Below, one piece after another: positions 4,449 through 10,304 of a stretch of 64,000 nt of DNA. The stretch is from positions 62,001-126,000 of the forward strand of contig NZ_FCNU01000007.1 in the NCBI RefSeq assembly GCF_001545115.1. The letters are read 5' to 3'. The first letter of the stretch is position 1, and each line of letters opens with the position of its first letter. Below the pieces are notes generated by a model. The model had not been told where the DNA came from, made no database searches, and saw only the letters and a program-made list of their open reading frames with translations. The translations under genes were made by a program, and so were the position numbers. Origin of the DNA: Candidatus Protochlamydia phocaeensis. Lineage in GTDB: Bacteria; Chlamydiota; Chlamydiia; Chlamydiales; Parachlamydiaceae.

Positions 4449-5471
4449 TTAGGCTTCCTTTTTATCGAAATCATTAGGAAAAGTGCCTTTTAAATATAGC
4501 TTAATTCCCTCCTCTACCCAATGGCGTAAGTTAATTTTAAAGCAAGCCAAAGCATCTCCTGGACTTTTTCCTTCCGGTGCTGGCCATGCTCTTAAATTAG
4601 AATAGGTATTGCGCCAAAAAGCATAGGCTTTTTTGCCTGCCTCGTCATAATCCATGCAGAATAAGAGTAGAGGAGAATTACATAGCTTATAATGAGTATT
4701 TAGATCAGGCTTTCGTCCAACTCCGCCCACTGCTAAACAACCACACAAATCGCCCGCAGCTTCCTGGGTCAGCATAGCATCTAATTCTGATTCCATAATG
4801 AAAATTGGTTTGTTATAGTCTTCTCCATAAAATGAAGGCGCATTCATGCTGCCTATCACTTCAACGTATTTAGGAAGGGGATCAGCTTGTTTCCAATCCG
4901 TTCTTCGAATTTTTAACTTAATTAATTTACCTTCCTGAAAGGTAGGTATTGTAATACCACTTGGCAGCCATAACTTATTTTTGCCTTTAGGTAATCCCCA
5001 TTCTTCTAATTTTCTTTGAAAATTCTTTGGGTTAAAGCCTATTCTAAACTTTTCTAAAGATTCAGATGTAAATCCTCGCATCATTAGCAAATTAGCAATT
5101 TTAGCTGACTCCAAAAGCTGCTTTTGGCACCAATTATTAAAGTTTAATCCCTTTTCTTGCCACTCCGAGGAAGGAAGAGTTGCAATTAAAGGTGCCTTAT
5201 AAGACTGATACTTTGGCTGTTCACCTTCCCTTAAGATTTGAGGCCGCACTCTAATCAGTTGGCAAGCTTCAAGATAGCTCATTCCTAAGAAATCTCGGCA
5301 AAATTGAATCTCATCTCCTCTTTTTCCGCATTGTCTACACCAATATTTTTTTTCTAAATGCCAAATAATAAAACGGTCCTTTCCGCCACAATGAGGACAG
5401 GAAGAATGATATTCTTTAGCTGATGCTCGTTTAGGAGTAAGACCGCATTTATTGATTAAATTAAGAATCAT
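4449..5471 (-). CDS. Element-encoded DNA primase, CHC2 zinc finger plus Toprim
   Basis: The N-terminal 65 residues hold a CHC2-like zinc-binding domain with CPHC and CRQC pairs separated by about 19 residues. After a linker there is a Toprim fold from about residue 222: the conserved Glu in IMESELDAML and the DxD motif in CMDYDEAGKKA. These are the metal-binding residues of DnaG-type and phage-type primases. At 340 residues it is shorter than host DnaG and lacks the DnaB-binding C-terminal domain, as expected for a phage or satellite primase. It is followed immediately by the zinc-ribbon gene and preceded by the repeat cluster 5484-5691. It likely primes replication of the excised element. 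Confidence 0.85.
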   Translation of the reverse strand: MILNLINKCGLTPKRASAKEYHSSCPHCGGKDRFIIWHLEKKYWCRQCGKRGDEIQFCRDFLGMSYLEACQLIRVRPQILREGEQPKYQSYKAPLIATLPSSEWQEKGLNFNNWCQKQLLESAKIANLLMMRGFTSESLEKFRIGFNPKNFQRKLEEWGLPKGKNKLWLPSGITIPTFQEGKLIKLKIRRTDWKQADPLPKYVEVIGSMNAPSFYGEDYNKPIFIMESELDAMLTQEAAGDLCGCLAVGGVGRKPDLNTHYKLCNSPLLLFCMDYDEAGKKAYAFWRNTYSNLRAWPAPEGKSPGDALACFKINLRHWVEEGIKLYLKGTFPNDFDKKEA

Positions 5472-5483
5472 AATAATTTATTA

Positions 5484-5691
5484 TTGCTAAAGTTGCTAAT
5501 TTGCTAAAAACAATGTTTATTCGTCTTACAGTTAACATGTTACGTTTATACATACTTTTACTAAACTTAGCTAATTTTGCTAATAACTGCATATGATTTT
5601 AGCAATGATTTAGAAACTATTTAGCATTTATATAATTAATATAAATCGTTTATCCTAAAGACTATAAATACCAATTTAGCAATTTTAGCAG
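5484..5691. repeat. TTGCTAA/TTAGCAA repeat cluster, candidate origin
   Basis: In this 208-bp AT-rich gap between the primase and DUF3987 genes the heptamer TTGCTAA occurs at 5484, 5493, 5501 and 5577, and its complement TTAGCAA at 5599 and 5676. A palindromic TTAGCTAA lies at 5567, and one-mismatch copies at 5621 and 5685. The left half carries one orientation and the right half the other. Iteron clusters next to a primase gene are a known layout of replication origins in plasmids, phages and satellites. They could instead be operator sites for the element's regulator. Confidence 0.6.
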
Positions 5692-5695
5692 GTTT

Positions 5696-7294
5696 TTATT
5701 TTTTAAGTGAATATGCCTCTTTATAATTTTTTCCAGAAACCTCAACGTTACGGTGTATAATAACCTGGTTGTGCTCCAATAAAATCTTCATTATAGAACG
5801 GGCTTTTTTAGCTTCTCGGATTGCATTGGGACCATATTGATAGATAAATGGTAAAGGAACAATCTGGTCTGGATATTTGTCTTCCATCCATTGTAAAGTT
5901 TTCTCAGCTAAAAGCACGTCTGGATTTATAGTAGACAATTTTTGCAAATTAATTGATTCATTAAGAAAGTATTTACCAAGAGAAATAGCATGGTTTAAGC
6001 AATCTATATGGATTAATGCCGCCTCAATGTTTTCTATTAAAGTAATTACACAAGCTATTCTAAGAACATGCTCTGGAACCTTACTAGCAAAAGGTTTGAT
6101 AGAGTGATAGATCCCATTAGAGTGCAGTTCTTTTTCTATTTCATTATAAAAATTTATCCAGGCTAGCTTGGCTTCTTGGTCTAATTTTATAACTTTTGGA
6201 TTTAGCTCATTGGACACTTTGCTATTTTTATCCACCGGAATAGGTTGATCTAAAATGAATTGTATTCTTTCAAAATACTTACAAATATCGGGATTTAGAG
6301 AGGGGTTAATTTCCCGATAACTGCGAGATCCTGCTCTGGAAGAAGGATGAGCAATTAGGCACCTAGCAAGCAAACCTTGCGAACTTAAAATCTTGCTAGA
6401 ATTAACCTGGTCAAATACAACAGGTTGGATCATTAAATGAAGAGAAAATCGACGACCATATAAAAATTTGCTTTCGTTAGTACGTATTCGACTAATCGGC
6501 TTGCCATCCCAAAGCCCAGATAATCCACAGCATGTATTTAGCATATTTTCAGAATTCATTCCCCATCCCCCAAACATGCTACCGCCCTCATCAGAAAATA
6601 ATCCTATGCTAGGCTGGCCTTCATCCAATAGCCTAACTAATCCTTGATAGGTAGGTTCTTCCACTATCATAATTGGTTTTAAGGGTGGTGTAGGTTCTGC
6701 TTCTAATGTATTCAACTGAGACTCTCTTTCGGAAGGATTAGCTAAAATTTCTTTTCTTTTTAATGTCCATAAGTCTCGGTTATTTGTAAATTTTTGACAT
6801 TGTTCTAGATAGGTTTTCATAAGCATTTTTTGCCAATCATAGATAGGCTTTAAAGCCACTTTATCAACAGCACTCTTTCTCTCACCTGAATCGGCAATAG
6901 AAATTAAAAAAAGTGATAAAGGAAATTGACGGCCATCAATTTCAACATCGGCATAAGTTTGAGTAGCTAATGCGGCCGCACCTAGTACGCTTAATCCGCA
7001 GATAGCATCCGGTGCTTGAATAATTTCATACAAGGCTTTTGCAGCCTTTCCTAGAATCTCACCCAAACTTTCAAATGGAAATGCTTCTTGCTTTATAGAA
7101 TCTCGCTGCAAAGGAATCGGGCTATGGTTATTTGCTTGGGGAAAGTTACCATCTTGTAGGTTCTGATTCTGCAGCATTTGTTCCAATTGATTTGCCCTTT
7201 CTAAAGATTTCTCCTTAATACTCAATTGCGATATTTCGTTTGATTGGGAGCAAAAATCTATTTGCTCAATAGATGTCTGATTTGCTAGACTCAT
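5696..7294 (-). CDS. DUF3987 (YfjI-like) replication-associated protein, 532 aa
   Basis: From about residue 70 the protein matches the DUF3987 family: a segment on auxiliary loading (AKALYEIIQAPDAICGLSVLGA), a self-protection-like stretch (ISIADSGERKSAVDKVALKP) in the position of a modified P-loop, and an acidic motif (IGLFSDEGGSMFGGWGMN) like a Walker B region. Members sit beside primases in integrated elements and are thought to act in element replication; the biochemical role is not settled. The P-loop-like segment has GERKS instead of a full GxxxxGKS, as is usual for the family. The gene is separated from the primase by the repeat cluster. Confidence 0.75.
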   Translation of the reverse strand: MSLANQTSIEQIDFCSQSNEISQLSIKEKSLERANQLEQMLQNQNLQDGNFPQANNHSPIPLQRDSIKQEAFPFESLGEILGKAAKALYEIIQAPDAICGLSVLGAAALATQTYADVEIDGRQFPLSLFLISIADSGERKSAVDKVALKPIYDWQKMLMKTYLEQCQKFTNNRDLWTLKRKEILANPSERESQLNTLEAEPTPPLKPIMIVEEPTYQGLVRLLDEGQPSIGLFSDEGGSMFGGWGMNSENMLNTCCGLSGLWDGKPISRIRTNESKFLYGRRFSLHLMIQPVVFDQVNSSKILSSQGLLARCLIAHPSSRAGSRSYREINPSLNPDICKYFERIQFILDQPIPVDKNSKVSNELNPKVIKLDQEAKLAWINFYNEIEKELHSNGIYHSIKPFASKVPEHVLRIACVITLIENIEAALIHIDCLNHAISLGKYFLNESINLQKLSTINPDVLLAEKTLQWMEDKYPDQIVPLPFIYQYGPNAIREAKKARSIMKILLEHNQVIIHRNVEVSGKNYKEAYSLKK

Positions 7295-7374: not shown

Positions 7375-7593
7375 TCATAGCTGGCTGTAGGTTGTTCTTT
7401 CTTGTATCCTATTGATACATTTAAAAAATTCCTGTTCATCAATAAGTACCCTCCTACCTACCCGTTTAATAGCTGATTGAAAACCATTAGTTGAAGCATT
7501 TAAGATTATGGCTCGAAGGGCACTCTCAGATGGCCAACTAAATTTGGAACAAAAATGTTTTACAGTTGAAAGTTTACTTTCTTCTACTGTCAT
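7375..7593 (-). CDS. Small excisionase-like DNA-binding protein
   Basis: The 72-residue protein has the look of AlpA/excisionase-type regulators: a helix (TVKHFCSKFSW), a second helix (SESALRAIILNA) and a wing-like segment (AIKRVGRRVLIDEQEFFKCI). I chose the ATG at 7593 because a GGAGG lies 5 nt upstream. It sits between the integrase-side genes and the replication genes, a frequent place for xis or a replication activator. A 10-bp inverted repeat lies just upstream of it. Recombination directionality is inference. Confidence 0.6.
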   Translation of the reverse strand: MTVEESKLSTVKHFCSKFSWPSESALRAIILNASTNGFQSAIKRVGRRVLIDEQEFFKCINRIQERTTYSQL

Positions 7594-7627
7594 AAAAGCC
7601 TCCATAAATTTGCTTGTTGTCGTTTGA

Positions 7628-7728: not shown

Positions 7729-8811
7729 TTACTTCAATTCGGATAGGCAAATATTTTTTAGTTCGGATGAACTTAGCAAGGCTATAGACTTGGAACTTTT
7801 AGGATGCCAAATAAGTTCTTCTCTGAGCTTTTTACAAGCTTCTCTTATTGGCTTCTTATCCCAACCAAAAGTGCTACTAATCAAATCTACGACATGTTGT
7901 GTCTTGATTTTAGGCCGATCTTTAAGTCCATAGCGGGTGAAAAGTTTTCTAATTACTTGAATAGCCTTATTCTGTGTTTCTTCAGAATAAACAGTTCTGC
8001 ATTGAGGACCAGCCAAACCTGTTACACGAGAATGAAATAGCTTGAGAAAATGAATCAATCTCTCAATAAGCTTTAAGAGACTGCTACAATTCCATCCCTC
8101 TTGAGAAAGCGATTGTCTTAATGCAGGATAGTTTTCCTTGAATAAAGCATAGAGGTGGTTTCGGTAAGATTGGTCTAACTCATTTTGAGCATAAACAATT
8201 CTGTTTCCATCACCTAAATTTAGACTATTTGAATAAAGAGATTGCCAAAAAATTAATTGGTTTAAAATTTCATAATCATCAACATCCAATCTAATCTCCC
8301 ATTTGTGCTCACTATCTGAATGAAATAATAACTTCCTGACATTTGTAGGTATTTTATCTACATTAAGAAAACTTAAGTCCAAGCTAAAGTCTGCTAAACT
8401 AAGTTCTGCTGAGGATACAACTACAGCTATTCTTTGAATTTTAAGCCATAGAGCATCGTATAAAGGTCTTCCATATTCAAATATTTTTCCCGCAAATAAA
8501 TCCTGAAGTTCTTTTAACTCTTTTCGTATATCTAATTGGTTTTGAGGTATAATTTGATCAAGTTTGGAGATAACTTCTGCAAACCACTCATATGTTACAA
8601 TTTTCTGTTTTTCAATTTGCTGATTCCTCTCTTCAATTTTCTTTCGACAAGAAAAATAAAATTCTTTTGAATAAGGATGTTTTTGCAATAGCAGTAGAAA
8701 ATTGCTTAAATGCGTAGCAAAACCCTCATCATGGATAGATAATTTCATTAAAGCTTGTAGACACTCGGCTTTATCAAAGAATTCCTTTTCCTGTTTTTGT
8801 TTCTTATTCAT
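7729..8811 (-). CDS. Unknown protein of the integrated element, 360 aa
   Basis: The protein is soluble and largely helical, with a Lys/Glu/Gln-rich N-terminus, no signal peptide and no membrane segment. I see no catalytic motif. The C-terminal 80 residues, basic with a possible small winged-helix pattern (RYGLKDRPKIKTQHVVDLI), might bind DNA. Its start overlaps the integrase stop by 8 nt, so the two are translationally coupled. Genes in this place in comparable elements are usually accessory to integration, replication or phage interference. No function can be assigned. Confidence 0.6.
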   Translation of the reverse strand: MNKKQKQEKEFFDKAECLQALMKLSIHDEGFATHLSNFLLLLQKHPYSKEFYFSCRKKIEERNQQIEKQKIVTYEWFAEVISKLDQIIPQNQLDIRKELKELQDLFAGKIFEYGRPLYDALWLKIQRIAVVVSSAELSLADFSLDLSFLNVDKIPTNVRKLLFHSDSEHKWEIRLDVDDYEILNQLIFWQSLYSNSLNLGDGNRIVYAQNELDQSYRNHLYALFKENYPALRQSLSQEGWNCSSLLKLIERLIHFLKLFHSRVTGLAGPQCRTVYSEETQNKAIQVIRKLFTRYGLKDRPKIKTQHVVDLISSTFGWDKKPIREACKKLREELIWHPKSSKSIALLSSSELKNICLSELK

Positions 8812-9886
8812 TTTCTTTCTCCTTCAATATGGTGTGGTTATTCTTTTGTAATAGATTAGCAATGTGCTGCTGACTAAAATGAGCATAGCGACGTGTCATT
8901 TGAGGTGAACGGTGACCAAGGATTGCCATTAACTCCCCTTGTGTCGCTCCATTCATAGCTAAATAGGAAGCGGCCGTATGTCGAAGGTCATGAAAGCGAA
9001 AGCTTGATATGCCAGCTTCTTTTAAAGCGCGTGCAAAGGATTTTCTTATAGAAATAGGTTGATTGGATTGAATAATTTTAAAGCTTTGAAAAATAAAGCT
9101 GATAGGTTCAGAACCATAAGTGGGGCATTTCTTTAAAATTGAAATAATTTCTTCGGTTAATGGAATAAATCTCTTTTCTCCATTTTTGGTTTCATGAAGG
9201 GTTATCAATCTTTGCTCAAAATCAATATCTTTCCACTTCAAGTTAATAATTTCCCCATAACGCATGGCTGTCATTAAAGCTATAGCCACAATTGAATATA
9301 AATAAGGGTTTGAAGAAGCTTTACAAGCCTTTAGAAGGCTATCCTTTTCGTCTAAGCTTAAAAATCGATCTCTTCCACGAGATTCTTTTGGTTTTGTTAT
9401 TTTCTCTACTGGATTCTCTAAAATCCATTCCCATTCTTTTACAGCGACTGACAAGGCTTTCGAAAAAGCAGCTATATATCGATTAACAGTGGATGGACTT
9501 CTTAGTTTGTTTTTAGAGGTTTTTTCTGAGAGAAGCTTATCTCTTACAGTAGCGATGTGAGATGGTGAAAGATTGGCAAGAAGGACATCTCCTAACTCTT
9601 CCTTCCATTTAGACAACAAGCCAACCTTTTTCACATAATATTTTGGATGCTTTGGAAGGCATTGAGCAATAAAACGATCTATTAATTCTTTAACCAAATA
9701 TTTTCTTGATGCAGATTGGTTTTTAAAACGTCCATCACGAATAGCAGCCTCTGTGTCTTGAATCCACTTTTTGGCTTGCGTTCTTGTACGAAAAGATTCT
9801 CTTTGCGATGGAAATCCTTTTAGCCTTACCTCTGCATGATAGCTTTTCTCTCCATTCTTTTTTGTTAGTTCGCGAATTGTACCCAT
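8804..9886 (-). CDS. Tyrosine recombinase / integrase
   Basis: The 360-residue protein is a phage-type integrase. The N-terminal 60 residues resemble an arm-binding domain (EVRLKGFPSQRESFRTRTQA), and a core-binding SAM-like domain follows at about 70-165. The catalytic domain has Arg in AMRYGEIINLKW (about 207), a Lys in the beta hairpin HETKNGEKRFIPL, HDLRHTA (about 298), GHRS and the nucleophile Tyr in RRYAHFS (about 332), so all catalytic residues are present. The gene ends toward the element and starts 346 bp from the tRNA gene at 10233, the usual place for an integrase that targets a tRNA 3' end. It is likely active in integration and excision. Confidence 0.95.
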   Translation of the reverse strand: MGTIRELTKKNGEKSYHAEVRLKGFPSQRESFRTRTQAKKWIQDTEAAIRDGRFKNQSASRKYLVKELIDRFIAQCLPKHPKYYVKKVGLLSKWKEELGDVLLANLSPSHIATVRDKLLSEKTSKNKLRSPSTVNRYIAAFSKALSVAVKEWEWILENPVEKITKPKESRGRDRFLSLDEKDSLLKACKASSNPYLYSIVAIALMTAMRYGEIINLKWKDIDFEQRLITLHETKNGEKRFIPLTEEIISILKKCPTYGSEPISFIFQSFKIIQSNQPISIRKSFARALKEAGISSFRFHDLRHTAASYLAMNGATQGELMAILGHRSPQMTRRYAHFSQQHIANLLQKNNHTILKEKENE

Positions 9887-10171: not shown

Positions 10172-10232
10172 AGGATCTTACACAATTTACGAAGCAAGCA
10201 AAGAACTGTCTAGAATAGGTTGTGAAAAGAGT

Positions 10233-10304
10233 GGGGCAAGTAGGATTTGAACCTACGACCAGCGGGTTATGAGTCCGCTGCTCTAACCACTGAGCTATTG
10301 CCCC
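10233..10304 (-). tRNA. tRNA with anticodon CAT (elongator Met or lysidine Ile)
   Basis: On the minus strand the sequence folds into a full cloverleaf. It has a 7-bp acceptor stem (GGGGCAA with TTGCCCC), a D arm with GCTCAGTGGTTAGAGC, an anticodon loop CTCATAA and a T arm with GGTTCAAATCC. The discriminator is A and CCA is not encoded. The anticodon CAT in this loop context fits either elongator Met or the Ile tRNA whose C34 is changed to lysidine; sequence alone does not settle it. The last pair of the anticodon stem is an A-C mismatch. The 3' end faces the integrase gene, so this is the probable integration target. Confidence 0.95.

Follow-up and report, generated by a model that had tools for sequence, protein, structure and literature searches.

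A candidate iteron replication origin beside the DUF3987 helicase gene of a chlamydial integrative element, proposed to be read by the helicase's own winged helix

Analyses of the repeats lying between a primase gene and a DUF3987 gene indicated, with high probability, that a 12.8 kb integrative element starts its replication here and that the DUF3987 helicase it encodes recognises this origin via a C-terminal winged helix. The observations are the array itself, its constant location 3' of DUF3987 across many lineages, the order in its geometry, and the covariation between its bases and residues of the helicase.

The window (the whole 64 kb stretch of DNA analysed, C7:62001-126000) belongs to a Chlamydiota genome of 3.42 Mb. 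The 3' part of tRNA-Met is repeated perfectly over 52 bp at C7:59442 and C7:72225, and the two copies bound an element of 12,835 bp that has 33.9% GC, compared to 42.4% GC in its surroundings. The minus strand of the element carries, in order, the integrase, two ORFs without assignment, DUF3987, the repeat region and the primase. The main features of the element are as follows:

10225 to 10276, no strand: att copy in the tRNA-Met 3' part (tRNA at 10231 to 10304), with an identical 52-bp partner at C7:59442-59493, 2.56 kb left of the window
8804 to 9886, minus strand: tyrosine integrase of the element
5696 to 7294, minus strand: DUF3987 (YfjI-type), a predicted MCM-like AAA+ helicase of 532 aa and the proposed initiator (Pfam PF13148, E=1.9e-87; PHROG 2373, DNA helicase)
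5699 to 5947, minus strand: predicted DUF3987 C-terminal winged-helix domain, residues 450-532, the proposed iteron reader, with covarying P482, Q486 and I492
4449 to 5471, minus strand: DnaG-type primase with a CHC2 zinc ribbon

The PF13148 match scored 294 bits against a curated cut-off of 27, which places the protein in the DUF3987/YfjI family. No packaging genes were recognised among the element ORFs searched, and the tRNA was the sole Rfam match in the first 12 kb of the window. The tRNA-Met 3' end was found five times in a row on C7 (37070, 39520, 45748, 59442 and 72225), suggesting that several islands have accreted at one tRNA gene. An adjoining island has its own integrase and genes resembling a type I restriction-modification set.

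The intergenic region (5472-5695, 224 bp) contains six copies of TTGCTAA, eight of the core TGCTAA and ten of GCTAA. Exact heptamers start at 5484, 5493, 5501 and 5577 on the plus strand and at 5599 and 5676 on the minus strand, and a palindromic TTAGCTAA lies at 5567-5574, between the two repeat orientations. When up to one mismatch was allowed, the array resolved into about 11 ordered sites, whose 6-base cores in plus-strand coordinates are at 5485, 5494 and 5502, then 5559 (weak), 5569 and 5578 in the forward orientation, and at 5599, 5610 (weak) and 5621, then 5676 and 5685 in reverse. They fall into four sub-arrays, the two inner ones flanked by the two outer ones, with a pitch of 8-9 bp in the outer sites and about 10-11 bp in the inner ones:

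5484 to 5691, no strand: candidate origin, four opposed TTGCTAA iteron sub-arrays in 72-82% AT DNA
5484 to 5507, plus strand: outer iteron triplet, TTGCTAA at 5484, 5493 and 5501 (pitch 9, 8)
5559 to 5583, plus strand: inner iteron triplet, 5559 (weak, one mismatch), AGCTAA at 5569 (half of TTAGCTAA) and TGCTAA at 5578 (pitch 10, 9)
5599 to 5626, minus strand: inner iteron triplet, TGCTAA at 5599, a one-mismatch site at 5610 and TGCTAA at 5621 (pitch 11, 11)
5676 to 5691, minus strand: outer iteron pair, TGCTAA at 5676 and 5685 (pitch 9)
5084 to 5106, minus strand: extra iteron array in the primase gene, TTGCTAA, TTGCTAA and AGCTAA (pitch 8, 9)

The third site of the reverse outer set, expected from the relatives, was not recognisable in the window, and the extra array within the primase gene may be coincidental. 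The array begins within 5 bp of the 3' end of the DUF3987 gene, and its position in the relatives is similar.

The preliminary description of this DNA had reported a heptamer cluster with an orientation switch and a palindromic middle copy, and had proposed a comparison with shuffled sequence. The exact copies bore the cluster out, and the 9-bp and then 8-bp spacing it had pointed to at 5484, 5493 and 5501 turned out to belong to one of the four ordered sub-arrays. At 77% AT, the region has a composition in which short words may cluster by chance; however, when it was shuffled 5,000 times (22.8% GC) with dinucleotides preserved, TTGCTAA occurred at most three times, against six in the real sequence, and six copies of any 7-mer with at least two G/C were reached in only one of the 5,000. 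Over the whole window TTGCTAA was seen 22 times where 19 were expected, and as there was no enrichment at that scale the signal is local. The array region also ties for the highest count of a single 6-mer among all 208-bp segments of the 64 kb, the others that reach a count of six being AAGAAG runs. These shuffles, together with the conservation of the array and its recurrence in many genomes, refute chance clustering, the probability of which we regard as vanishingly small.

To follow the array in relatives, 13 chlamydial homologues of DUF3987 (37-47% identity) were taken with their flanks. Most had an array of this kind at the 3' end of DUF3987, and the array keeps this place while the repeat word varies (e.g., TTGCTAC in L043 and TTGCGAC in L044). 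A cluster beside DUF3987 in close relatives, which the preliminary description had named as a check on its reading, was present in nearly all of them. Many of the relatives have frames of 784-842 aa, and the length of those of at least 784 aa suggests a primase-DUF3987 fusion; loci with such frames mostly have compact arms, with three forward and three reverse sites in about 50-65 bp. Where the primase and DUF3987 genes are separate (e.g., in the window, in L033 and in L034), the arms extend over about 200 bp and there are further sites between them. Farther afield, at about 25% identity, several chlamydial DUF3987 genes have arrays of GGGACAA type with a 9-bp pitch. The right arm in L043 lies about 300 bp past the DUF3987 stop, apparently inside the next primase gene. 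Two loci, L076 and L082, match Chlamydiota genomes (G170 and G193) but are titled Chlamydia trachomatis and Verrucomicrobiota, and these metagenome-bin labels look doubtful.

The survey was widened to 80 DUF3987 loci from many phyla, some of which come from chlamydial genomes already used above. An exact test asked for a single 6-mer repeated at 8-11 bp pitch in arrays of opposed orientation, in the 400 bp at the 3' end of the gene; it detected arrays at 39 of the 80 loci and in 5 of 1,600 control tiles from the same loci; for near-exact arrays of three plus three sites the numbers were 44 of 80 and 4 of 1,600. Arrays beside DUF3987 were also found on Paracoccus and Legionella plasmids and in the phages Javan191 and NatCom_43819. 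About half of the 80 loci failed the strict test; some of these have halves that are far apart or degenerate, and in others nothing was found. No array was recognisable near the Citrobacter/E. coli YfjI genes (L059, L060 and L061) or in the Legionella anisa plasmid L057, though the C-terminal motif is similar. Alignment queries found the relatives, whereas single-protein pattern scans of genome contigs and viral contigs found none.

The inverted arms could in principle form a hairpin, such as a transcription terminator, with the identity of the repeats a by-product, and compact loci such as L032, in which arms of three plus three sites lie close together right after the stop codon, would suit such a structure. 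In 22 compact loci, however, mirrored spacer bases matched at a rate of 0.51 compared to 0.53 for non-mirrored ones, while the cores matched at 0.95, so that pairing of the arms is not the conserved feature. In addition, the outer arms in the window are about 170 bp apart. The terminator hairpin was rejected, as complementarity of the arms is not maintained outside the repeat cores, and we consider this explanation extremely improbable.

The geometry seen in the window recurs in other loci. In the 13 loci with four sub-arrays (forward, forward, reverse, reverse), outer spacings were 8-9 bp in 49 of 50 cases and inner spacings 10-11 bp in 45 of 53. We hypothesise that six sites per half-origin suit one hexamer each. 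The full 12-site geometry is present in L098 with its halves 4 kb apart and genes between them; L144 is similar, and L121, L139, L151, L143 and L092 have matching distant triplets. Across these seven loci the forward and reverse half-arrays are 2.4-6.6 kb apart with intervening genes, and in L139 and L151 one half-array is inside an upstream coding frame. L098, L121, L139 and L144 were searched for direct repeats that might, as att sites, bring the half-origins together when the DNA is excised, and none were found. In L081, L086 and L129 the triplets are divergent (reverse then forward) rather than convergent, an arrangement that is not explained by a simple model of rings placed face to face.

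To identify the protein that reads the iterons, those of 65 loci were set in one register and mutual information was calculated over all columns of the protein alignment. The highest values were for Q486 with iteron position 5, P482 with position 7 and I492 with position 2, all of which are winged-helix residues. Gln486 accompanied T5, and Arg, Lys or His486 accompanied G5, in 60 of 61 training loci; Arg482 accompanied C7, and other residues at 482 accompanied A7, in 60 of 62. Three training loci (L114, L116 and L120) have other residues at 486 with T5. The 486 pattern was first seen by eye, so that the held-out loci provide the clean test; the rule was fixed in writing before any of the held-out loci with an informative residue 486, except L072, had been fetched.

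The held-out set consisted of 57 loci (48 of 51 viral-contig loci and nine obtained earlier but previously unused). Arrays were found in 30 of these, 25 of which have an informative residue 486, and all 25 follow the rule; the count was 23 of 23 after removal of L159, the same segment as training locus L135, and L184, which is the same as L182. The 482 rule was looser in the held-out loci, where Arg occurred with C in 13 and with A in 3, and other residues with A in 6, T in 4, C in 3 and G in 1. A general pairing of residue 492 with G2 was dropped after it failed to generalise to these loci.

On a tree built from the helicase domain only, 17 changes were counted at base 5 and likewise 17 at residue 486, and 11.5 of 12 independent pairs were concordant with none opposite (p ~0.001). 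Partial Mantel tests correlated the iteron with the recognition region given the helicase (r=0.37, p=0.0005), compared to r=0.03 for the iteron with the helicase given the recognition region. This places the association in the recognition region rather than the helicase, and the partial Mantel tests and the switches on the tree together indicate that relatedness alone does not explain the covariation.

The preliminary description had offered DUF3987 or an excisionase-like protein as the recogniser. The former is favoured by the covariation with its own winged helix in both training and held-out loci and by the occurrence of arrays beside DUF3987 on plasmids and in prophages; the latter gained no support, its ORF having no Pfam, PHROG or NCBIfam family match. 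That the repeats are sites for some other protein of the element, such as the product of the small ORF at 7375-7605, an HTH regulator or the integrase, might be argued from L139 and L151, whose second array lies inside an upstream integrase-like gene, and from L098 and L144, whose second array is just past a frame of similar size (identities judged by eye). We nonetheless consider this very unlikely, since arrays accompany DUF3987 on plasmids and in prophages and the iteron bases covary with the winged helix of DUF3987 itself.

DUF3987 was earlier predicted to be a helicase (PMC5862659). The best PDB matches to its fold were MCM/CMG subunits (E ~3e-5), and this similarity to the MCM ATPase fold is a distant one, with a TM-score to the query of about 0.37; a solved DUF3987 relative was not found by sequence search of the PDB. 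The prediction for DUF3987 is an AAA+ helicase of MCM-like type, with a winged helix at its C-terminus. Residues 486 and 482 are modelled on the second, short helix of the winged-helix domain and not on the usual third recognition helix, and their contact with the iteron may therefore be indirect.

Recognition by DUF3987 could also serve regulation or copy-number control, with the array acting as a primase operator or as incompatibility sites and initiation occurring elsewhere. In favour of this, the primase gene is downstream of the array, and the outer triplet overlaps promoter-like sites, although these are no more frequent than chance predicts (4 found, 3.2 expected). Against this, the array is 3' of DUF3987 even where the primase and helicase appear to be fused and another gene is downstream, and its geometry fits the origins of PICI/SaPI elements (PMC6092414, PMC7581432); we regard a purely regulatory array as unlikely. 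The iteron origin proposed in the preliminary description is supported, as an inference, by the shuffles and by the presence of the array beside DUF3987 in relatives, and we infer that the array is an origin rather than a binding array only.

If the array is the origin, each iteron would span 7-8 bp and follow the pattern NNGC[T/G]A[A/C], and the opposed groups of sites would place two helicase rings face to face over the AT-rich DNA that separates them. The rings would then melt this DNA, and once the element had been excised the DnaG-type primase encoded alongside would start synthesis. Direct binding, assembly of the rings, melting, priming and replication itself are all putative steps of this model.

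Classical iteron plasmids of the RepA/TrfA type have longer iterons, arranged as direct repeats, and an initiator without helicase identity of its own. As in the present element, they have repeated initiator sites beside an AT-rich region, whereas the sites here are short, opposed and apparently read by the helicase's own domain.

Closer parallels exist in the SaPI/PICI elements. In PICI origins two iteron sets flank an AT-rich region 3' of rep (PMC6092414), and the candidate origin here likewise has two opposed iteron sets around AT-rich DNA (72-82% AT), a location directly 3' of the initiator helicase gene, and a primase and helicase that are adjacent or fused (PMC6092414, PMC7581432). The SaPI/PICI helicase has a C-terminal DNA-binding domain (PMC6092414, PMC7581432), while for DUF3987 recognition of the iterons by the C-terminal domain is suggested by strong covariation. 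Differences include the Rep families, which are DUF927 or SaPI5-like Primase_Cterm in SaPIs, in contrast to DUF3987/YfjI as the sole Pfam match here; the NNGC[T/G]A[A/C] type of the iterons, with a readable residue-base correspondence; and the occurrence of DUF3987 arrays on plasmids and prophages as well. In SCCmec, repeats just downstream of the helicase gene are bound by the C-terminal domain of Cch/Cch2, and the Cch2 site consists of three direct repeats (AAGTG), its inverted repeats not being needed for binding (PMC7581432); those helicases belong to the DUF927 and Primase_Cterm families, compared to DUF3987 here.

A neighbouring island at the same tRNA encodes a DUF927/SCCmec Cch1-like helicase (L031:12073-13809, minus strand), and opposed repeats of 9-bp pitch (GTGAGA ... 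TCTCAC) are located directly downstream of its gene (L031:12000-12072), which is consistent with the same layout being used with a different helicase family.

The PICMI of Vibrionaceae resemble the present element in having an integrase and a DUF3987/DUF5906-type protein, which is needed there for full replication, and deletion of this prim gene from the satellite PICMI115 (Vibrio) lowers the number of circular copies (PMC10803314). PICMI integrate beside fis, unlike this element, which is at tRNA-Met, and AlpA was not identified here. No origin or iterons are described in the portion of the PICMI text searched (PMC10803314).

A search of a collection of open-access papers found none tying DUF3987 or YfjI to iterons. 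What appears to be new here is a probable PICI-like iteron origin with DUF3987 as its proposed initiator, together with the residue-base rule. More broadly, we tentatively propose, with somewhat less than even confidence, that DUF3987/YfjI proteins are widespread self-recognising initiators that follow a geometric origin rule. A full half-origin would have six sites, an outer triplet of 9-bp pitch and an inner triplet of 10-11 bp pitch, so that every subunit of a hexamer has a site of its own; a complete origin would dock two opposed hexamers; and the bases read would be predictable from residues 486 and 482. With the residue-to-base rule, single substitutions can test the specificity of the initiator directly, and sequence could serve to locate origins of this kind in unannotated elements.
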